DNA from: a virus | DNA length: 26,582 nucleotides | Reading direction: 5' to 3' (one strand) | Virus record (IMG/VR): IMGVR_UViG_3300017782_000177 | Coordinates: 1 to 26,582 of that record | In this document: piece after piece, positions 17-26,582 of the stretch | How positions within the stretch are numbered: position 1 is the first letter of the stretch | How the letters are laid out: each line of letters starts with the position of its first letter | The notes under the pieces: model-generated | Database searches by the model: none | What the model saw: only the letters and a program-made list of their open reading frames with translations | Told to the model about the DNA's origin: nothing | Translations under genes and position numbers: made by a program

Positions 17-298
17 ATGAACTTAGAAACAAAATTTAAAAAAGAAACAGGTTTTGATGCTTATGCAGATAATGATTTAAAACCTAAAGTGCCAAGCAAT
101 TATTATGTAAAATGGCTTGAAGAGCAATTAACTTTAACCGATGTTGTAAAATCGTTACCGACTGAAGAAGAAATAAATTTAGCAGCTAATGGATGTAGCG
201 ATGTAAATGGAGTTATATGTGCAGATGAATACTGGGTAATAGCTAAAAATAATGGTTTTAAAGAAGGTGTAAAATGGCTAATTAATAGACTAAAGTAA
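17..298 (+). CDS. Small AT-rich hypothetical protein before the portal gene
   Basis: I do not recognise a function. The 93-residue product is acidic, has no signal peptide or membrane segment, and carries a pattern (ETGF near residue 10, then Y-V-x-W-L-E around residues 30-35) that looks like small phage proteins of Bacteroidota. The coding sequence is clearly richer in A and T than the head genes that follow, and it is separated from the portal gene by about 150 non-coding bases with two hairpins. Both points suggest a separately acquired moron between the (unseen) large terminase and the portal. The start is the first ATG after an AT-rich leader. A real gene is likely because codon use is consistent and the frame is open from the leader to a TAA. 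Confidence 0.6.
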   Translation: MNLETKFKKETGFDAYADNDLKPKVPSNYYVKWLEEQLTLTDVVKSLPTEEEINLAANGCSDVNGVICADEYWVIAKNNGFKEGVKWLINRLK

Positions 299-7865: not shown

Positions 7866-10014
7866 TCTTTCATCAATCAATATCGGATTCCATGTGAATC
7901 TGAAAGAGTTCCAGACGCAAATGCAGCGCGTAAGTAGCAGCATGAAGCGTACTGGTGATCAGATGAAGCAGATGGGCACTACTATGTCTACCTATCTGAC
8001 TGCTCCAATGTTGGCGCTTTCTGGTGTTTCTCTTCATCTTTGGGATACACAAGAACAGGCTCTTGCTCAGGTTAGAACAGGTCTTGAAAGTACAGGAGGG
8101 GCTGCAGGTAAAACATTGGAACAGCTCACCGAGCTAGCCAGTCAGATGCAGGATAAATCTCTATATGGCGATGAGAATATCCTGAAGAATGTCACTGCTC
8201 AGCTGCTCACCTTTACTAATATAGCGGGAGATCAGTTTGACAGAACCCAGCAAGCGGCACTAGATCTTGCCACTCGTTTAGGTGGAGACCTAAAGAGTGC
8301 AGCTATTCAATTGGGCAAAGCGTTGAATGATCCGGTCGCTAATCTTAGTGCACTCAGTAGATCTGGTATTCAATTTACAGATAGCCAAAAGGCTATGATC
8401 AATTCACTTTGGGAGGCTGGAGATGCTGCAGCTGCTCAGGGTCTGATTCTGGCAGAATTAGAAAAGCAATATGGTGGTTCTGCACAAGCGGCTGCAGAAG
8501 CTGGATTAGGTGGTTTTAAGCAATTGCAAAACTTAATCGGAGACCTAACGGAAGAAATTGGTGGTATCATTGCCAAGGCAATTTTGCCATTGGTTAGTCG
8601 ACTCAAAGAAGCTGTTAAATCATTACAAGCTCTTTCTCCAGAGGTTAAAGAAAAGATTGTTCTTTTCGGAGGTTTAGCGGCTGCCATTGGCCCGGCTCTA
8701 ATTGCCATTGGTTCTCTTACAAAGATCATGGGTTCTTTGGCCCTGGCAGGTGCTACCGTATCTGCTCCAATTCTTGCCATTGGTGCTGCAGTGGCGGGTG
8801 CTGCAGCTTTGATTATTAAGAACTGGCAGCCAATCAATGCATACTTTACAAGCGGTGAAGGTGCTCAGTTGTGGAATGGTATCAAGCAAGCAGCTGAAAG
8901 TGCCTGGCAAGGAATTCAGGTAGCCATTCAAGCTTTTGTGGGTCTTGTCAAAGTAATCTGGGATAAGTTCGGAACCGATATTCTTGCATTAGCCAGTGTT
9001 CAATTTCAGTCACTGGTCAATACAGTTACATCAGCACTTCAGATTATTGGAGATCTATTTTCCACTCTGTCTTACCTCCTTCAGGGGGATTGGGCCAATA
9101 TGTGGAAATCTCTTGGAAATGCCTTTATCACCTTCTATAACTGGATTGTGGGTATGGCAGGAAGTCTTGCCAAGGCTATTTTGTATCCAATACAAAAGAT
9201 TGCAGAGGGCGCTGGGTGGACGGGCTTGAGCGAAAAACTCGCTGAAGTAAGCCAGGGAATAGAATTCTTCACTGAGTTTATTAAGGCTAACAGATTTGAG
9301 GTTGATGGCGCTGAGAAATCTACCATCAATCTGTCTGATGCAATAGGTGGTTTGCAGGATCAAATTAGTGGTCTTTCAGATGAACCAATTAAAAGAGTGA
9401 CTACCTCTCTGGATCAAGCAGCGCGGTTAATTGAACCTGTTGTTCGGCTAAGGGTAAAAGCACCAAACTTAACGCCTGGTATTTCTCAAGATCAGGGCAT
9501 TCGGCAAGAAGTAGTTCCTGATGTTATTCCAACTGGAATAGATCAGTTTAAGGAGGAAACAGCTTTTCTGGAATCAAGGCTTCAAAATGTCGGGAATTCA
9601 CTCTCTAATTTGTTTGATGATGCTATTGCTGGTGTTGTAGATGGTGCTGGCGATATGACAGATGCCTTCCATAATTTCTTTACATCGCTACAAAAGGATA
9701 TCGCCCAGGCCATTGCAAAGTTTTTGGTATTAAGAACCCTCTCCGCTGCTTTCGGGATTGCTTCAGGAGGTACTGGTTTTCTGGGTGGAATACTTGGGGT
9801 TCCTGCATTTGCTTCTGGTGGTATTGTTACGGGGCCAACATTGGCCATGGTCGGTGAGGGTGGTGAAAGTGAAGCCATTCTTCCACTTTCAAAGCTTAGA
9901 GCATTAATAGGATCTAATGAAGGTGGTAATGTTCGCGTATCTGGTGAGTTTATGCTTTCTGGAGAAGTAGCGAAAGCCACTATTGAAAGATCAGATTACA
10001 GGAATTCGCGCTGA
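7855..10014 (+). CDS. Tape measure protein
   Basis: This 719-residue protein sets tail length and is ejected ahead of the DNA. The N-terminal third is helical and starts with the usual F-Q-T-Q-M-Q-R-V-S-S-S-M-K-R-T-G-D-Q-M block and M-S-T-Y-L-T-A-P; residues about 267-320 contain hydrophobic stretches (G-G-L-A-A-A-I-G-P-A-L-I-A-I-G and a later Ala/Ile-rich segment) that may cross the inner membrane during ejection. The end has the typical F-A-S-G-G-I-V-T-G-P-T-L-A-M-V-G-E-G-G-E motif. At the usual 1.5 angstrom per residue the tail would be near 110 nm (inference). The start is TTG at 7855 overlapping the chaperone; the next in-frame ATG at 7921 would delete the conserved first strand. Confidence 0.93.
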   Translation: MANNLSSINIGFHVNLKEFQTQMQRVSSSMKRTGDQMKQMGTTMSTYLTAPMLALSGVSLHLWDTQEQALAQVRTGLESTGGAAGKTLEQLTELASQMQDKSLYGDENILKNVTAQLLTFTNIAGDQFDRTQQAALDLATRLGGDLKSAAIQLGKALNDPVANLSALSRSGIQFTDSQKAMINSLWEAGDAAAAQGLILAELEKQYGGSAQAAAEAGLGGFKQLQNLIGDLTEEIGGIIAKAILPLVSRLKEAVKSLQALSPEVKEKIVLFGGLAAAIGPALIAIGSLTKIMGSLALAGATVSAPILAIGAAVAGAAALIIKNWQPINAYFTSGEGAQLWNGIKQAAESAWQGIQVAIQAFVGLVKVIWDKFGTDILALASVQFQSLVNTVTSALQIIGDLFSTLSYLLQGDWANMWKSLGNAFITFYNWIVGMAGSLAKAILYPIQKIAEGAGWTGLSEKLAEVSQGIEFFTEFIKANRFEVDGAEKSTINLSDAIGGLQDQISGLSDEPIKRVTTSLDQAARLIEPVVRLRVKAPNLTPGISQDQGIRQEVVPDVIPTGIDQFKEETAFLESRLQNVGNSLSNLFDDAIAGVVDGAGDMTDAFHNFFTSLQKDIAQAIAKFLVLRTLSAAFGIASGGTGFLGGILGVPAFASGGIVTGPTLAMVGEGGESEAILPLSKLRALIGSNEGGNVRVSGEFMLSGEVAKATIERSDYRNSR

Positions 10015-12377
10015 TGGGTCCAAAGTATCACAATGAATATTATGATCTCTTTGGAAATCTTCATCGATGGGAGATCTGGGATAAATTATTAACGCCATCT
10101 TCTCAATCTTTTGAGGTGGAAAGCTATGATGATGGCTTTACACTGGAAAGAGGTCAGGCAGGGGATAAGGTCTATGAGCCTATTATAAGAACTACTGGCA
10201 CAGTCAAGTGGAGGCTCTTTTCAACTAATGAGCTCAACTATTTGCAAGCTATTGCACAGGACCAAGAAGACCGATTCTTTATAAAGTATTACAAGAAGTC
10301 AAATCTTGAGTGGCAGGGAAATATTGTAGTTGATCTCATTCGGATTCCCAATCAACCAATTGAGCAGGGTTTGGAAGTTCAATTGGTGGCTCGTGATGGT
10401 TTGCAAAGACTCAAGGAGAATACATCGCCATTGACCTATGTCAGTGCCTTGAATTTGATCTTTAAGATGCTGAGAAACGTGGATACCGGTCCATTATTCG
10501 CGAATACAGATCCATTCATTCGAACGGCCATTCGTTGGTTCGAAGAAAGTATGGCATACGGTACCACACAAAATCCATTTGCACGGTGGACTGTAAATCC
10601 TGATAACACATTTAAAGATCCAGATAAGACTGAGTTTTATGATCACTATACCTGCCTGGAAAGAATGCTTTTGGCGTTTTCAGCCCAATTGGAAATGTCA
10701 GGTGGGTCGTGGCTTATAACCAATCATTCGGAAAAAGCTGATGGCACTATCAGAGAGCATATCTATCAGAGAAACTATTCACCGGGAGGAAATGATTTTC
10801 AGAATGAGTCTGGAATAATCAGTGCCGGAGTCATGGATTACCTGCCAACGACTGAAGGGAATCCAGTTTTTGTTGAATTTCTGGGGCCTCAGTGTAGCTA
10901 CACATACCGTCCAAAGCTGAAAAAAGCAGAAAGGGAGATAAAGTATGATGGTGGCACTCGTCTATGGTCAAGGACAAATTATGTGACCACTACGCAGTTC
11001 ATGACAGCTTCCATTACCGAATTGCCTTCTCAGGATAGCTTTATTCGAGTAGTGGGTAATTTCTATGTGAAAGCAAGAAGTGGTGTCGTTGCGAATGTGT
11101 ATAGAGAATATACAGTTACCCTCAAGCTGGTAGGAACAAATACTTGGTACTATAGCACGAATTCAGGTTGGGGAACAACGGCGGTGACAAGTAAGGTCAT
11201 TACAAGTTCAACTCAGATGCAGTTGAATATGGATATGTTTTTCAATGACGCTGTGAATATCGACACGGGTAACATACCTGGTTCAGGAACCTTATTCGTG
11301 GAAGTAGATCTCGCCTTTGTTTCGCAAAATGGAAATGGTCAAATTCCTCAGCTCATAACCATAGACATATTTAAAGCCACTGAGATATTTGTAGAGCATC
11401 TTCCAGAAGACATCACTAGGCTCAGGGATACTGTTATTTATGCCAAGGATCCAAGTTCGCAAAGTAGTGCTGTGGAGGTACTGCCAGATGCATATATAAC
11501 TGATGGCAGAGGAACTACCAACAATACTAAAATTCAGATTTGGACAGGCTCTCAATGGCAGGACAGCGTTGCTTGGCGTTTAGAAAACGCTGGTACACGA
11601 AGAAATATCGTGGCCTTTCAACTTGAGGAGTTGCTTCGGTTGTATAGTGTTCCAAGAGAGCTGCACACCGTACAAATGAATGGTAGTCTTAGTAGTCATG
11701 AAATGATACTTTGGGATTCAAAGTATTTCGCATTCACTCATTATGTCTATAAAACTGGAGAAGGACATATCTCTGGAGAGATCCATGAGCTCGCCCGGAT
11801 CACCACTGATTTTACAGTAGGAGAAATCACTGATATTCCACAGCAAGTCATGGCGGCAAAGATTGCTGGTCAGTCTATGCAGTATAGTTTACCTCCGGGG
11901 CTTGCATTGACATTTACCACAGCCAGCATAGCAGCAGGCACTTTGGATGCGGTTGATGTGCAGTCTTTGGGTTTTGATGGGCCAGTAGATGGGCAAAAGT
12001 TGATCATCGTGAACATGGCCACCATGGATGCAGAGGAAATAGAGTTGAGCGCGGATTTAAATTCAACTGATACATCGATCAGTTTTAATTCAGTGGCTTT
12101 TTCTGCCAACTATCCCGCAGGAAGCCTGATAATGATTCAGGCTCAAGAGCTGTCTAATCTGCTTGCGCGCAGATCATCAGGATTCTTGTGTGGATTGGCT
12201 CTTTCAGCCTCTAGAATTGGTTCAAGTCAAGATGCTCTTGAGCTTGACACTGCTTCTGGTGATGGTCGTTTTAATGGCCAATTGTCTGTGCCTAATATTC
12301 AGGAGAGCTCAGAGGCAGCTACTGGTGAATTATATGTGGATGGAGAAGGATTCATAAAGTTAAAAGAAGCACCATGA
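10014..12377 (+). CDS. Tail tip / distal tail hub protein
   Basis: This 787-residue protein follows the tape measure, where siphophages place the distal tail and tail-associated proteins. The N-terminal 130 residues (Y-H-N-E-Y-Y-D-L-F-G-N-L-H-R-W-E-I, later G-L-E-V-Q-L-V-A-R-D-G-L) look like the hub domain of Bacteroidota siphophage tail proteins, built on self versus reference-frame strands; the middle is beta-rich and the C-terminal 150 residues (after about 610) are Ala/Ser-rich with a repeated-strand character ending in L-Y-V-D-G-E-G-F-I-K-L, like the trailing end of a fibre shaft. No separate Dit gene is seen, so this protein may combine hub and tail-associated functions. It begins at a TGATG overlap with the tape measure. 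The family assignment comes mostly from position. Confidence 0.7.
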   Translation: MGPKYHNEYYDLFGNLHRWEIWDKLLTPSSQSFEVESYDDGFTLERGQAGDKVYEPIIRTTGTVKWRLFSTNELNYLQAIAQDQEDRFFIKYYKKSNLEWQGNIVVDLIRIPNQPIEQGLEVQLVARDGLQRLKENTSPLTYVSALNLIFKMLRNVDTGPLFANTDPFIRTAIRWFEESMAYGTTQNPFARWTVNPDNTFKDPDKTEFYDHYTCLERMLLAFSAQLEMSGGSWLITNHSEKADGTIREHIYQRNYSPGGNDFQNESGIISAGVMDYLPTTEGNPVFVEFLGPQCSYTYRPKLKKAEREIKYDGGTRLWSRTNYVTTTQFMTASITELPSQDSFIRVVGNFYVKARSGVVANVYREYTVTLKLVGTNTWYYSTNSGWGTTAVTSKVITSSTQMQLNMDMFFNDAVNIDTGNIPGSGTLFVEVDLAFVSQNGNGQIPQLITIDIFKATEIFVEHLPEDITRLRDTVIYAKDPSSQSSAVEVLPDAYITDGRGTTNNTKIQIWTGSQWQDSVAWRLENAGTRRNIVAFQLEELLRLYSVPRELHTVQMNGSLSSHEMILWDSKYFAFTHYVYKTGEGHISGEIHELARITTDFTVGEITDIPQQVMAAKIAGQSMQYSLPPGLALTFTTASIAAGTLDAVDVQSLGFDGPVDGQKLIIVNMATMDAEEIELSADLNSTDTSISFNSVAFSANYPAGSLIMIQAQELSNLLARRSSGFLCGLALSASRIGSSQDALELDTASGDGRFNGQLSVPNIQESSEAATGELYVDGEGFIKLKEAP

Positions 12378-15291: not shown

Positions 15292-15714
15292 ATGCAATGT
15301 TATAAGCCAGAGTTCTTTTCTATTAAGGAGCTAGTACATCCTCAAATTCTCAAAGCCATTGGTGCAACAAACTCGTGGATGCGGCTTGATGCCGATTGTT
15401 TGAGAGATCTGGATACCATTCGTAAAGCTTATGGCTCTGAGATCTATATCAATAAAGGAAGAAATGATAGCAGAGGGCTAAGACCTCCTAATGATTACGA
15501 TGGAAGTTTTTACTCTGTACACAAGCAAGGTAAAGCGTTCGATTTGGTACCTAAAGATGGAAATGTAGCAAAGCTTTTTGTTACAATAAAGATGTTAATC
15601 AAAGATGGAAAGTTGAAGAAATTTAATACGCTTGAAGATCTGGCGTTTACTCCTTCATGGGTCCATGTAGCCTGTATGAATCATGATCAGAAACCATATA
15701 TCATTAAGCCATGA
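15292..15714 (+). CDS. Endolysin, peptidase M15 family
   Basis: A 140-residue zinc peptidase predicted to cut the peptide part of murein. The M15 zinc motif S-x-H-x-x-G-x-A-x-D is intact (S75, H77, G80, A82, D84) and the third ligand is H125 in W-V-H-V. The usual general-base Glu a few residues before the last His is not obvious (the segment reads F-T-P-S-W-V-H); E115 may do the job. There is no signal peptide, so it needs the holin, encoded next. It is the first gene of the lysis cassette and starts two bases after the fibre gene stop. Confidence 0.85.
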   Translation: MQCYKPEFFSIKELVHPQILKAIGATNSWMRLDADCLRDLDTIRKAYGSEIYINKGRNDSRGLRPPNDYDGSFYSVHKQGKAFDLVPKDGNVAKLFVTIKMLIKDGKLKKFNTLEDLAFTPSWVHVACMNHDQKPYIIKP

Positions 15715-16133
15715 ACAAGGATGAAGGAATTATCTATTTAATGACCAAGCTTGGGGTTTGGATAGGGGTAATTATTAGCCCGATTATGCCAGTTATTGGC
15801 ACTGCCTTTATGGTCATTGGCTTAAATATAATCACTGGCGTAATGGCCTCTATAAAGCATAGGGATCAAGGGGATAAGTGGTGGCAAGTTTTGAGCTTGG
15901 ATAAGCTCTTTTGGGCGTTTACAAAATTCTTTATCTATTCCTTTGTGATCGTGGTTTCTTACAGCATTGAAAAAAATGTTATTCAATACGTTCCCTGGGT
16001 GCAGGTAATTTCAGGACTCATTACGGTTGTAGAGATCAAAAGTATCAGCGAAAATGTGAAGCGTATATATGGAATAGATTTACTCAATGGTATTAAACAT
16101 TATCTAAACAAAAAACCAAATAACGAAACATGA
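15711..16133 (+). CDS. Phage holin (Phage_holin_4 type)
   Basis: The 140-residue protein has three hydrophobic segments, about residues 14-46 (possibly two passes with a Pro turn), 67-86 and 92-108, and the pattern L-N-I-I-T-G-V-M-A-S-I-K-H-R-D followed later by V-E-I-K-S-I-S-E-N-V, which is typical of this holin family. It would form membrane lesions that let the M15 peptidase reach the murein. It overlaps the endolysin and spanin genes by four bases each (ATGA), forming a compact lysis operon. Confidence 0.88.
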   Translation: MNKDEGIIYLMTKLGVWIGVIISPIMPVIGTAFMVIGLNIITGVMASIKHRDQGDKWWQVLSLDKLFWAFTKFFIYSFVIVVSYSIEKNVIQYVPWVQVISGLITVVEIKSISENVKRIYGIDLLNGIKHYLNKKPNNET

Positions 16134-16693
16134 AAAAACTCTTATTTATAATTGGACTAAGTACAATTTTTTCGTGCCAATCTAAAAAAGTATCGATAGT
16201 TCAGCAAAGTTCAGTTGACAGCACTCAGGTTTATAAACAACAACTGATTATTGACAGTATTTATACTCATTATGAAAGAACAAAAGAAATACTTGTAGAG
16301 CGGGTAAAAGCTGATACAAGTAAAATGAGGATCAGGCTTGATCAAATTTGTGATTCAGCAATAAGAAATGCCTTAGACATTAATTATCAAAATTCTTCTT
16401 TGAACGTCAATATACAAGATGGGTTCATAAATGTGAATTGTATTACTCCAGAACAGTTGAATGCCTCCATTCATGAAAAACAAAGAGCTTTATCCTCTTC
16501 TTTTAGAGAAAGACTCGACAGTGCGCACCAGGTGTATCTCGATAAAGAGCTAAAAAGCAGCATTAAGGAAACAACTCGCTATGTCAAGGACATCTGGTGG
16601 ACAGTGAGAATTGTATGCCTGGCTATTCTTGTCACTTTCTTGTTGCGACCATTTATCATGAATCTTTTTCGGGGATTCATATCAGGATTATGA
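16130..16693 (+). CDS. Probable unimolecular spanin (lipoprotein with C-terminal membrane anchor)
   Basis: The 187-residue protein has a lipoprotein signal peptide (MKKLLFIIGLSTIFSC, lipid cysteine C16), a long charged periplasmic segment likely to form coiled coil and beta structure, and one strong C-terminal transmembrane segment at about 157-174 (I-V-C-L-A-I-L-V-T-F-L-L). An outer-membrane lipid anchor and an inner-membrane anchor in one chain is the u-spanin design of phage T1 gp11, which fuses the two membranes at the last step of lysis. Position directly after endolysin and holin supports this. Residues after C16 (Q-S-K-K) lack the acidic export signal of Bacteroidota surface lipoproteins, so the chain should stay periplasmic. 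No Rz/Rz1 pair is seen elsewhere. Confidence 0.75.
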   Translation: MKKLLFIIGLSTIFSCQSKKVSIVQQSSVDSTQVYKQQLIIDSIYTHYERTKEILVERVKADTSKMRIRLDQICDSAIRNALDINYQNSSLNVNIQDGFINVNCITPEQLNASIHEKQRALSSSFRERLDSAHQVYLDKELKSSIKETTRYVKDIWWTVRIVCLAILVTFLLRPFIMNLFRGFISGL

Positions 16694-16711: not shown

Positions 16712-17007
16712 TTGCTGTTGAGCCGTCCAAGTAATTCCTTGTTGATCTGCTGGACCTTGAAAAATCTTTAAAAGGTTTTTGCTTTAAGTATTTATTTTAC
16801 TGATAATAAGCTAATTATAAAAATATCCGGGTGACCTGTCAAGCAAGCGCTCTAAACCAACTGAGCTAATCACCCTATTTCCTTGCCCTGTTTACGGGGC
16901 TTCCCAGTTCATGGGCAATAACTGAGTCTGGGATATTTTGCCAAAGTTCTTCAATTTTTACCGATTTTCACCGTTTCAGTCTTGAAAATATCTTGAAAAT
17001 ATCTTGA
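16694..17007. other. Non-coding attP region between lysis and integrase genes
   Basis: This 314-base stretch holds no gene. It contains a tRNA-Val gene fragment on the minus strand (16829-16875), 11-bp tandem repeats next to the integrase start (16980-17009), a related CCTTGAAAAATC at 16755-16766 on the other side of the tRNA fragment, and inverted repeats such as CCCAG/CTGGG around 16903-16934. Together these are what an integrase attachment site with core and arm sites on both sides would show. Confidence 0.6.
16829..16875 (-). other. attP core candidate: 5' part of a tRNA-Val(GAC) gene
   Basis: Read on the minus strand, 16875 down to 16836 reproduces the first 40 or so positions of a tRNA: acceptor strand GGGTGAT, TA, D stem GCTC with loop AGTTGGTTTA and GAGC, one G, anticodon 5' stem CTTGC and loop TTGACAG, giving anticodon GAC (valine). 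The 3' anticodon stem and the whole T arm are missing; instead GTCACCC follows, which can pair with GGGTGAT. So it is not a working tRNA gene. A conserved tRNA piece beside an integrase gene is the usual mark of an attachment site, but phages normally carry the 3' part, not the 5' part. Confidence 0.65.
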
Positions 17008-17009
17008 AT
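16980..17009 (+). repeat. Tandem TCTTGAAAATA repeats, candidate integrase arm sites
   Basis: Two exact tandem copies of the 11-mer TCTTGAAAATA (16980-16990 and 16991-17001) and a partial third (TCTTGAAT, 17002-17009) overlap the integrase start codon. The 11-bp period equals about one helical turn. A similar sequence, CCTTGAAAAATC, is at 16755-16766 beyond the tRNA core. They could be arm-type binding sites for the integrase N-terminal domain and also allow autoregulation. Confidence 0.5.
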
Positions 17010-18183
17010 GACTATTCGGTTTAGACTCTGGCAACATTATAAGAACAAAGAAGGTAAATGTGCGCTGCAGCTCGTTATCTCGGACAAAGGAAAGGAGAAA
17101 ACAGTCAAGACTGGTATTCGAGTTGACCCTGAATTCTGGGATCAGGAGAATCAGAAGCTCAAGTCTGGATATCCACTTTACAAGAAAATAAATTTGGAAC
17201 TGTGGAATATAAGGCTGGTGTATGAGCAAGCTGCATTAAAGGCTGTGATGAATGGTGGAGACACCAATGATCTATTGAAAATAGTTTCTGGAGCTTCAGA
17301 TGATAGAAATTTCATAAGTTTTGGAAAAAGCCAAGTAATTCACCTGAAGTCTATGGGTAAAGACGGAACGGCCATAGCGTACAAACATGCAATCAACCAA
17401 CTTGATAAATCGTATCCGGAGATCAGATTTCAGGATCTTACACCTGAAGTGCTTAAAGAATGGAGAGATATGAAGATTGCAATGGGAATGGCACCCTCTG
17501 GGGTTCATTCATACTTGCGATCATTGCGAGCAATCTGGAACAAATCAGATACTGAGATGCCATCGCCATTTATCAAAGGGTTATTTCCTAAGATCACTAC
17601 TCGAATGCCAAGGAATAATAGTGTGGAAGATATAAAGGCCCTATTTAGGTATCGGCCAGGCGAAAAAAATACGGGTGCAAAGCTGGCCAGAGATCTGTGG
17701 TGTCTGGGTTTTCTGTTTCGAGGCATGGACTTCGTCGATCTCAGTAAATTAAGAGTGGAAGAATTGCAGAGCGACTACTTCATGTATCAGCGGCAAAAGA
17801 CCAGAGAAGAATTAAAAATTAGAATCTTCCCGGAAGCTAGAATCATCATAAATGATTGGAGTAAGACCGGGTACCTTTTTCCAATTAGACAAGGAAAGGG
17901 TGGTGAAGAGAGATCCTACATTGAGATTAAGAATCAGCTGAGCAGAGTGAACAGGGCGCTGGTTAAGATTAGCAATGAGGTTCAAGTAGGAGTCAAGCTG
18001 ACCACAAAGACTTGCAGATACAGCTTTGCTAGTATTGCCAAGGATGCTGGAATTGATTTTTCAGTAATCAGAGAAATGCTAGGTCATAAAGAGAGAGGAG
18101 TCACCGCCCTATATCTAGATAGGCATCCACAAAAGAATATTGATGATGCTCATAAAACGGTATTCTCAAAAGTTTGCACATGA
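17008..18183 (+). CDS. int: Tyrosine recombinase integrase
   Basis: The 391-residue enzyme has an N-terminal arm-DNA-binding domain (about 1-85), a SAM-like core-binding domain (about 100-200) and a catalytic domain (205-391). Catalytic residues are visible: Arg I at R238 (F-L-F-R-G-M-D), Lys at K264 in a beta turn, box II with R337 (K-T-C-R-Y-S-F), H360 in L-G-H-K, and nucleophile Y369 (T-A-L-Y-L). Box II has Lys instead of the common His at position 334, a variation also found in other phage integrases of Bacteroidota. The enzyme would recombine attP and a host site, probably in a tRNA-Val gene. It faces away from the lysis genes and its start codon lies within the 11-bp repeats. Confidence 0.95.
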   Translation: MTIRFRLWQHYKNKEGKCALQLVISDKGKEKTVKTGIRVDPEFWDQENQKLKSGYPLYKKINLELWNIRLVYEQAALKAVMNGGDTNDLLKIVSGASDDRNFISFGKSQVIHLKSMGKDGTAIAYKHAINQLDKSYPEIRFQDLTPEVLKEWRDMKIAMGMAPSGVHSYLRSLRAIWNKSDTEMPSPFIKGLFPKITTRMPRNNSVEDIKALFRYRPGEKNTGAKLARDLWCLGFLFRGMDFVDLSKLRVEELQSDYFMYQRQKTREELKIRIFPEARIIINDWSKTGYLFPIRQGKGGEERSYIEIKNQLSRVNRALVKISNEVQVGVKLTTKTCRYSFASIAKDAGIDFSVIREMLGHKERGVTALYLDRHPQKNIDDAHKTVFSKVCT

Positions 18184-18232: not shown

Positions 18233-19054
18233 ATGTCTCCTGAAGAAGCTCTGCCTCAAGATTCCATGTCGTTTGAAGATTTTGGCCATGACAATGGAAT
18301 CCGTTTTTGGTATGCTAGTTGGTTCTGCCAGGTTTTGGGGTATGCCAACATGAAGTCCTTCGAAAAGGTAATTCAAAGAGCAATTAAGGCTTGTATCAAT
18401 GCAGGTATTCCATATGAGGAGGACTTTAGAAAGGAGACTCTGCTTGTTGATGGTAAAAGTGTCTATGACTACAAGCTGAGCAGGATGGCTTGCTATCTGG
18501 TGGCCATGAATGCTGACTCCAAGAAGGAGGGGGTTGCTAAAGCACAGGTGTATTTTGCGGAACAGGTAGAGCAGATTAATCTCATGCTTGAAGGCCAAAA
18601 GGATCTTGAGCGTTTAGAGGTAAGGGAGGAGTTAAAAGAGAGTTTTAAAGCTCTACAGGATGCAGCAAAGGGGCATGGTGTCTTTGACTACGCTCTTTTT
18701 AATGATGCGGGATTTAGGGCAATGTATAATAAAGGACCAAAGCAAATAGCAGAGATTCGCGGTGTCAAGCATGGGCAGTTATATGATCACATGAGCCGTG
18801 TTGAGCTGGCCGCAAATTTGTTCCGAATGACTCTCACTGAAGAAAAGCTAAAGAATCTTCCTGGTAGGGCAGGACAGCATGGGGCAGAGAGAGTTCATGG
18901 TTCTATAGGTAAACAGGTAAGGGGTATGGTTCGGGATAATACTGGCATGAACCCTGAGAATTTGCCTCAAGAGCGAAAGTTACCTGAAGTTAAGAAAGAG
19001 CTTAAGAAAGCCCAGAAGAAACTGAAAGAAGTTGATAAGAAGAAGAAAAAGTAA
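18233..19054 (+). CDS. dinD: DNA-damage-inducible protein D (DinD)
   Basis: The 273-residue product matches Escherichia coli DinD in length and pattern. The N-terminal half has a Bro-N-like region (R-F-W-Y-A-S-W-F-C-Q-V-L-G-Y, then K-S-F-E-K-V-I-Q-R-A near 40-50) with the L-S-R-M-A-C-Y-L-V-A-M-N motif, and the C-terminal half has D-Y-A-L-F-N-D-A-G-F and the diagnostic D-H-M-S-R-V-E-L-A-A-N-L-F-R-M-T followed by T-E-E-K-L-K. E. coli DinD disassembles RecA filaments in vitro. The extreme C-terminus is a Lys-rich helix. In a prophage, next to the integrase and repressor, it may act on RecA during induction or recombination, or serve as an antirepressor since Bro-N domains are common in those. 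It is convergent with the beta-barrel gene. Confidence 0.88.
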   Translation: MSPEEALPQDSMSFEDFGHDNGIRFWYASWFCQVLGYANMKSFEKVIQRAIKACINAGIPYEEDFRKETLLVDGKSVYDYKLSRMACYLVAMNADSKKEGVAKAQVYFAEQVEQINLMLEGQKDLERLEVREELKESFKALQDAAKGHGVFDYALFNDAGFRAMYNKGPKQIAEIRGVKHGQLYDHMSRVELAANLFRMTLTEEKLKNLPGRAGQHGAERVHGSIGKQVRGMVRDNTGMNPENLPQERKLPEVKKELKKAQKKLKEVDKKKKK

Positions 19055-19643: not shown

Positions 19644-20321
19644 TTACATGGTTCTTCTGCGAAGAATTCCTTTGACCCTGTACAAGTGATTCACTTTGTC
19701 TTTGATTATTTCCCAATTTGGATAGTCAGTATTAGCTGATTTTAGCATAATTGTCTCTGGTAATGATCCGGGGAAGACATACTTTACAACAGTCACTTCA
19801 TTGGTGATAATTAAATGTGGATCGCCAAAATTGATCAGGTCCATGTCTTTGACTGTATTGCACAGAATAACATCTCCATGGCAAAATACAGGTTCCATGT
19901 CTTGTCCGCTGATGTTTATTGCATAGTCGCAATCACTAAAACTTGGGATTACAAATCTATCAGTTACATGTGTCTCGTGGGGATCATTCCAAATATTAAT
20001 ATGTCTGTCAATTACATCGATGTTGTAAAATTTTATCGAATTATTCAAAAAAGGCGGGGGAGTCCTCAAAGAAACACTTTTTTTTGCAGTATCAGAATTT
20101 TCTGATGCTTTTTGGTCAAAACTACTCTTGAACGCTTTTTCGAATTTGTATAAAAAGCTATCAGGCGGTTCTATGTGTTTGTTGTAAATTTTACTAAGGT
20201 AGCCTCTGGTTACGCCTAGTTGATCCGCAATGTAGGAGATTTTCAGGCCCTGTGCCCTGAGCTGTTCAATTTGAAAGGCGACCTGCTCTCTTTTTGGGGG
20301 GAGGAGCTTCTCTTCTGTCAT
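19644..20321 (-). CDS. Phage repressor, HTH plus S24-like domain lacking the catalytic serine
   Basis: The 225-residue protein has an N-terminal helix-turn-helix (about residues 12-50: K-I-S-Y-I-A-D-Q-L-G-V-T-R-G-Y-L-S-K-I) and a C-terminal LexA/CI-like S24 fold (about 120-222) with the pattern S-G-x-x-M-E-P-V-F-x-x-G-D. In active members the motif reads G-D-S-M; here it is S138-G-Q-D-M, so Asp141 stands where the nucleophile Ser should be. K180 (V-T-V-V-K-Y-V) matches the catalytic Lys position. The linker (66-110) has no Ala-Gly or Cys-Gly. Autocleavage therefore looks impossible. The gene is divergent from a Cro-like gene and forms a two-gene transcript with the downstream beta-barrel gene. 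Confidence 0.9.
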   Translation of the reverse strand: MTEEKLLPPKREQVAFQIEQLRAQGLKISYIADQLGVTRGYLSKIYNKHIEPPDSFLYKFEKAFKSSFDQKASENSDTAKKSVSLRTPPPFLNNSIKFYNIDVIDRHINIWNDPHETHVTDRFVIPSFSDCDYAINISGQDMEPVFCHGDVILCNTVKDMDLINFGDPHLIITNEVTVVKYVFPGSLPETIMLKSANTDYPNWEIIKDKVNHLYRVKGILRRRTM

Positions 20322-26033: not shown

Positions 26034-26198
26034 ATGATTTATTCAAACGAGAAAAATAGAATGATTCCTGATGTAGAGACAGATTCTTTTGAATCTATTC
26101 TGTTTTCAATGCTTGAAATGATGGAGTACAACTGTTGGTATTCAAGTTATGGATGGATGTTGTGCTCGGATAATAATGAATTAACTGGATTGATATGA
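26034..26198 (+). CDS. Small hypothetical protein before the HNH gene
   Basis: A product of about 54 residues starting at the ATG one base after the previous stop (MIYSNEKNRM). The frame is also open from ATG at 25995, which would overlap the preceding gene by 38 bases. It is rich in Met, Trp and Tyr in the C-terminal half (M-M-E-Y-N-C-W-Y-S-S-Y-G-W). It overlaps the HNH gene by four bases (ATGA). Function unknown. Confidence 0.45.
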   Translation: MIYSNEKNRMIPDVETDSFESILFSMLEMMEYNCWYSSYGWMLCSDNNELTGLI

Positions 26199-26512
26199 AT
26201 AGTCCTAAACGTCTTGAGCTTGCTCACTTGAAGATTGAGGATAGAAGGAATCAAGTACATGATCCTTTCTATTCATCAAGAGCATGGAGAAGAGTTCGAG
26301 GTGCATACAAGGCTGCTCATCCAGTATGTGAAGAGTGTGAGAAGAATGGTAAGGTCACGCCAATGAAAGCAGTTGACCATATTAAACCAAGACGAGAAGG
26401 CGGTGCTGACTTTGATTGGGATAACCTACAGTCGCTTTGCCAGCGCTGTCATGATCAGAAGTCTTCGAAAGAAGGAAAGGCAATTCAATATGGAACAAAT
26501 AAATATGCATGA
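26195..26512 (+). CDS. HNH endonuclease (packaging-associated type)
   Basis: The 105-residue protein has the full HNH pattern: zinc pair C45-x-x-C48, D61-H62 in the V-D-H-I-K-P motif, N77 (D-N-L-Q-S-L) and C82-x-x-C85-H86. The S-R-A-W-R-R-V-R stretch (28-35) is typical of phage HNH proteins. Small HNH proteins next to the terminase take part in cos cleavage and packaging in HK97-like phages. The position at the end of the replication operon and just before a gene cut by the window edge fits that role. Confidence 0.9.
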   Translation: MNSPKRLELAHLKIEDRRNQVHDPFYSSRAWRRVRGAYKAAHPVCEECEKNGKVTPMKAVDHIKPRREGGADFDWDNLQSLCQRCHDQKSSKEGKAIQYGTNKYA

Positions 26513-26513
26513 A

Positions 26514-26582
26514 ATGAGAAGGGGTAGGGGTCAAAAAAATATGAGTTTGGTCACTGACCACCCACAGCTCTCTTCTTCTTTC
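26514..26582 (+). CDS. Start of a gene cut by the window end, possibly small terminase
   Basis: An open frame begins at ATG 26514 (one base after the HNH stop; ATG at 26505 is an in-frame alternative) and reads M-R-R-G-R-G-Q-K-N-M-S-L-V-T-D-H to the last base. The Arg/Gly-rich basic opening and the location after an HNH gene suggest a small terminase subunit. Only 23 codons are visible. Confidence 0.4.
   Translation, partial: MRRGRGQKNMSLVTDHPQLSSSF

Follow-up and report, generated by a model that had tools for sequence, protein, structure and literature searches.

The window analysed here, a virus record of 26,582 nucleotides taken as a whole, carries on the minus strand of positions 16835-16875 what is very probably the core of a phage attachment site (attP), which the tyrosine integrase encoded next to it at 17008-18183 would recombine with a host tRNA-Val(GAC) gene by a crossover in the anticodon loop, with the 5' half of the tRNA gene being restored in the process. 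The core is identical to the 5' part of a bacterial tRNA-Val(GAC) gene with boundaries at nucleotide 1 and next to the anticodon loop, it adjoins an intact integrase gene and is accompanied by repeats, it regenerates a whole tRNA when joined in silico to the bacterial gene, and the same anatomy is found in integrated relatives.

The tRNA-Val(GAC) part and its boundaries

Read on the minus strand, positions 16829-16875 consist of GGGTGATTAGCTCAGTTGGTTTAGAGCGCTTGCTTGACAGG followed by TCACCC. The 41 nucleotides from 16875 down to 16835 are exactly nucleotides 1-41 (nt 1-39 in standard tRNA numbering) of a tRNA-Val(GAC) gene called by ARAGORN in a Flavobacteriia MAG (L002, positions 107-182, minus strand; full sequence GGGTGATTAGCTCAGTTGGTTTAGAGCGCTTGCTTGACAGGCAAGAGGTCACTGGTTCGAATCCAGTATCACCCAC), which was the only exact match to this 41-mer among the 84,980 bacterial and archaeal genomes of the genome_contigs collection. 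From the acceptor 5' strand the identity extends over the anticodon loop TTGACAG to the next base, G39, and its 5' boundary is exactly tRNA nt 1, before which the phage has A and L002 has T. The D loop of the phage copy has an extra T, an unusual feature also present in the real L002 gene, and D loops with such a T, allowing at most one mismatch to a degenerate pattern, are scattered over 10 of 395 Bacteroidota genomes. An exact match of 41 nucleotides lies far beyond chance. No whole tRNA was called by ARAGORN in the window.

The first-pass annotation had taken the 5' part of a tRNA-Val gene for the attP core, and this is borne out by the exact match to a tRNA-Val(GAC) gene from nt 1, which is too long for chance, as well as by the same anatomy around related integrases. 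Of the interval that it had given for the core, 16829-16875, the part 16835-16875 matches the tRNA, and the last six bases (TCACCC, 16829-16834, minus strand) lie outside the tRNA identity. The departure from tRNA sequence, which it had put exactly at the end of the anticodon loop, is off by no more than one base, as the identity reaches G39. Since the identity ends one base past the loop and since the crossover of islands in the anticodon-loop class falls there (PMC4383910), the probable 7-bp crossover (overlap) region is the anticodon loop TTGACAG itself, at 16836-16842 on the minus strand.

The integrase, its candidate arm sites and the neighbouring phage genes

The integrase gene lies on the plus strand 132 bp from the core and encodes 391 amino acids with Arm-DNA-bind_5 (E value 7e-11), Phage_int_SAM_5 (2e-6) and Phage_integrase domains, the last of these with an E value of 6e-6 and a match just under Pfam's gathering score. 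This domain set is typical of Bacteroidota, and R171, R337, H360 and Y369 occupy invariant columns in an alignment of integrase relatives. Between the core and the integrase gene, just before its start, TCTTGAAAATA stands twice in perfect tandem (16980-17001, plus strand), giving 11-bp repeats that are a candidate for arm-type integrase sites; among 135-nt segments drawn at random from the window, only 0.5% contain a perfect 10/10 tandem at a spacing of 10-13 bp. Across the core, CTTGAAAAATCTTTAAAAG (16756-16774, plus strand) is a degenerate copy and a weak match, with 8/10 positions at 10-bp spacing, and may represent a second arm. The core is further flanked by AAAATATCC at 16820-16828 on the plus strand and by its inverted partner, the same sequence read on the minus strand, at 16931-16939. 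The octamer AAAATATC occurs four times in the 26.6-kb window, each time within 16820-17003, and two of these copies belong to this 9-bp inverted pair. Comparable repeat pairs with 11-bp spacing were recognised by eye on both flanks in integrase relatives, for example ACGTGCAAATTACGTGCA in L034, and the repeats near the integrase gene of the phage may function as arm sites.

To the left of the core, at 15292-16693 on the plus strand, lie genes of lysis type: an M15 peptidase-like gene, called from a weak Pfam M15_3 match, and genes probably for a holin-sized membrane protein and a lipoprotein-like product, to judge from their position and sequence. Portal, protease, capsid and tape measure genes follow farther left, and on the right an S24/HTH repressor-like gene (19644-20321) and a DnaB-type helicase gene are found. 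The gene directly after that of the integrase (18233-19054) encodes a protein with a BRO-N domain (Pfam Bro-N), which phrog_8036 matches over almost its whole length. At its start (1-448) the contig sets in just before the portal gene, and at its end (26195-26582) it runs out behind an HNH endonuclease gene. No terminase gene was recognised in the window, and the record probably lacks a small stretch holding the packaging genes.

These surroundings bear on whether the fragment might instead be host DNA at the attL or attR junction of an assembled prophage. As a virus contig the record may be a fragment, and a recognisable terminase gene is missing, but phage genes stand on both sides of the core, with the portal gene and those up to the lysis genes to its left and the integrase, repressor and helicase genes to its right, and the gap in the gene set falls at the contig ends rather than at the core. 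The site is thus read as attP of an unintegrated genome, and a prophage junction is considered highly improbable.

The proposed integration reaction and its two junctions

When the attP was joined in silico with the attB of L002 at the end of the identity, the integrase-side product was called as tRNA-Val(gac) by ARAGORN and the product of the other side gave no tRNA call, a result that speaks for sequence compatibility only and is not proof of a reaction. In the proposed mechanism, the integrase would recombine the attP core with the host tRNA-Val(GAC) gene by a crossover in the 7-bp anticodon-loop segment, and the phage copy of nt 1-38 would be placed before the host 3' half at the integrase-side junction to give a whole tRNA. 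It is because the phage carries the 5' half that integration would rebuild the tRNA at this junction, and because nt 1-38 are supplied by the phage the restored gene would have to be transcribed from phage DNA, starting upstream of the core between core and integrase gene and running divergently from the latter. That the restored tRNA is read from the phage side had been offered beforehand as one option, and it agrees with the in-silico joining, successful at the integrase side only, and with the integrated anatomy of the relatives. If the restored tRNA-Val gene is essential, a lysogen would depend on phage DNA for the expression of this tRNA.

A crude scan for a Bacteroidota-type promoter (TTTG, 17-21 bases, TAnnTTTG) upstream of the core gave nothing above background, and since it came out empty for L020, L093 and the L002 gene as well, it was uninformative. 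Neither a lysogen nor a close relative of the phage was present in viral_contigs or in 395 Bacteroidia genomes, and the genome of L002, the sole one with the exact 41-mer, contained no related integrase.

At the far junction, integration as proposed would leave the host promoter and the host 5' half, followed by TCACCCGGATA, so that a truncated tRNA would be read into the lysis side of the prophage. An earlier observation was that the seven bases GTCACCC after the anticodon stretch can pair with the acceptor strand GGGTGAT, from which a 47-base mini-tRNA without a T arm had been suggested, either transcribed and functional or left by a deletion inside a captured tRNA. The pairing does exist, with six Watson-Crick pairs and one G-U over the seven bases, and a host promoter would read into the 47-mer after integration; yet the predicted fold of the 47-mer stays within the range of shuffled sequences (z -0.94), with the D arm and the anticodon arm not kept, and the covariance search with the Rfam tRNA model reached 13.5 bits (E 5.3) at 16828-16875, a sub-threshold match below the gathering score of 29. 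When 20-nt tails were drawn at random from the window, about 2% of them paired as well as the phage tail, an estimate made once the match was already known. Of three relatives, L040 has at best a weak pairing at the equivalent positions (5.5% of draws), and L034 and L043 have nothing noteworthy. The mini-tRNA was rejected on the grounds of its shuffle-like fold, its Rfam score far below the cutoff and the weak, post-hoc acceptor pairing; both its functional form and the internal deletion are deemed extremely unlikely, and the pairing of GTCACCC with the acceptor strand is regarded as coincidence. A related thought, that the displaced host promoter makes a stable tRNA-derived small RNA, composed of the 5' half and GTCACCC and acting on host or phage functions, is given hardly any credence; if true, the phage would have made a regulatory RNA gene out of a tRNA promoter of the host.

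Related integrases and the 5' class of tRNA attachment sites

In the Islander database, a 5' tDNA fragment is recorded for 159 of 3919 tDNA islands, about 4%, with a 3' fragment in the other 3760, and 2083 sites are anticodon-centred versus 1836 in the T-stem region (PMC4383910). The phage site resembles the 5'-fragment, anticodon-loop class of Islander in its tRNA target, tyrosine integrase, anticodon-loop crossover, attP with the 5' part and displaced host 5' fragment, and differs from it in being a free attP in a phage record rather than an integrated island. A tRNA end fragment that runs from the 5' end to the anticodon loop, an adjoining tyrosine integrase gene and regeneration of the tRNA in silico were all found, and by these testable features the site appears to fit the 5', anticodon-centred class, an uncommon but already recorded arrangement. 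It would thereby furnish a free-phage example of this minority class.

The nearest integrases are about 24-31% identical to the phage enzyme. Among 56 regions around the best-scoring integrase matches in Bacteroidia genomes, which are not a random sample, 12 have a tRNA gene close upstream of the integrase gene, with its 5' end facing the integrase gene in seven and its 3' end in five. Four of the seven 5'-facing cases have at their far end the 5' part only of the same tRNA: nt 1-43 of tRNA-Ala about 26 kb away (L020/L040), nt 1-44 of tRNA-Ala (L013/L034), nt 1-44 of tRNA-Lys (L027/L043) and nt 1-47 of tRNA-Pro (L093). The remaining three comprise L017 (Met) with several stacked copies, L004 on a contig too short to tell, and L067, which is ambiguous, its far copy being a whole tRNA. 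The four clear elements share the integrase architecture of the phage as well as the 5'-only far copy, and in them the 5' end of the tRNA faces the integrase gene about 200-420 bp from the integrase match. Their identity ends at nt 43-47, in contrast to the phage, where G39 is the last identical base and the remainder of the 3' anticodon stem is not included. L020 and L093 are like the phage in sharing identity only from about nt 1 on, and all three must use a start of their own; L013 and L027 are unlike it, as 144 and 57 bp of DNA upstream of the tRNA were copied as well, so that the promoter region came along.

Other Bacteroidota phages and elements (for example L009 with Asn, L096, L104 and L113) have the same integrase family and the same placement upstream of the integrase gene as the phage but carry the 3' part, the usual choice. 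Partial far copies of 3'-facing cases span nt 33-75 (L009) and nt 21-74 (L007, Thr). The 3' kind dominates in viral contigs, where a motif scan of 53 loci turned up a 3' part at about 12 sites and a 5' part, a short one, at L102 only. Exact and degenerate patterns found no other viral contig with a tRNA-Val 5' part, and single-protein scans of viral_contigs with integrase and portal recovered no relatives. Nucleotide searches of the phage and plasmid collections with the att region were negative, as was a search of phages with the tail protein (10014-12374). A tree of 28 integrases requires four or more changes of the 5' label, which means that the 5' habit was gained or lost repeatedly rather than in one lineage; the phage integrase has no firm neighbours in it and ends a long branch (1.63). 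Bacteroidota look like a good group for studying why an element takes over the transcription of a host tRNA.

These comparisons also bear on the relic that the first-pass annotation had named as an option, here taken to mean that the 5' part is left from an old integration or an imprecise excision and that the phage now integrates elsewhere or is no longer temperate. The absence of a recognised promoter for the restored tRNA, the slightly earlier end of the identity than in the relatives and the absence of a lysogen from the collections would agree with it, but 41 nucleotides have stayed unchanged and end at functional boundaries, an intact 391-amino-acid integrase adjoins the core, the repeats are laid out like arm sites and a repressor-like gene is present, which together suggest a site in use. 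With the 5'-fragment class at about 4% of tDNA islands (PMC4383910) and several Bacteroidia relatives using the 5' part, the relic is not supported and is held to be improbable, and an attP in use is preferred.

Some further features were observed in the integrated elements. In the element of L013, the 144 bp of upstream DNA in the tRNA-Ala copy (L033/L034) contain a good TTTG/TACTTTTG promoter match, so the 5' half was captured along with its promoter region. At the far end of the L017 element (L037, 9171-9540) three 5' copies of tRNA-Met are stacked, two of them with an insert of ~45 bp in the D loop (CCCTCCTTCGCCCCGAG...CGGGGC...GGGAGC), which suggests that integration took place repeatedly and that displaced tRNA fragments took up a small palindromic insertion. 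A tRNA-Thr-like copy at the far end of the L007 element (L045, 6533-6650) has its D loop broken by ~32 bp (TGCGTTGGAGGCGAAGCCTCTGACGCTGAAAG).
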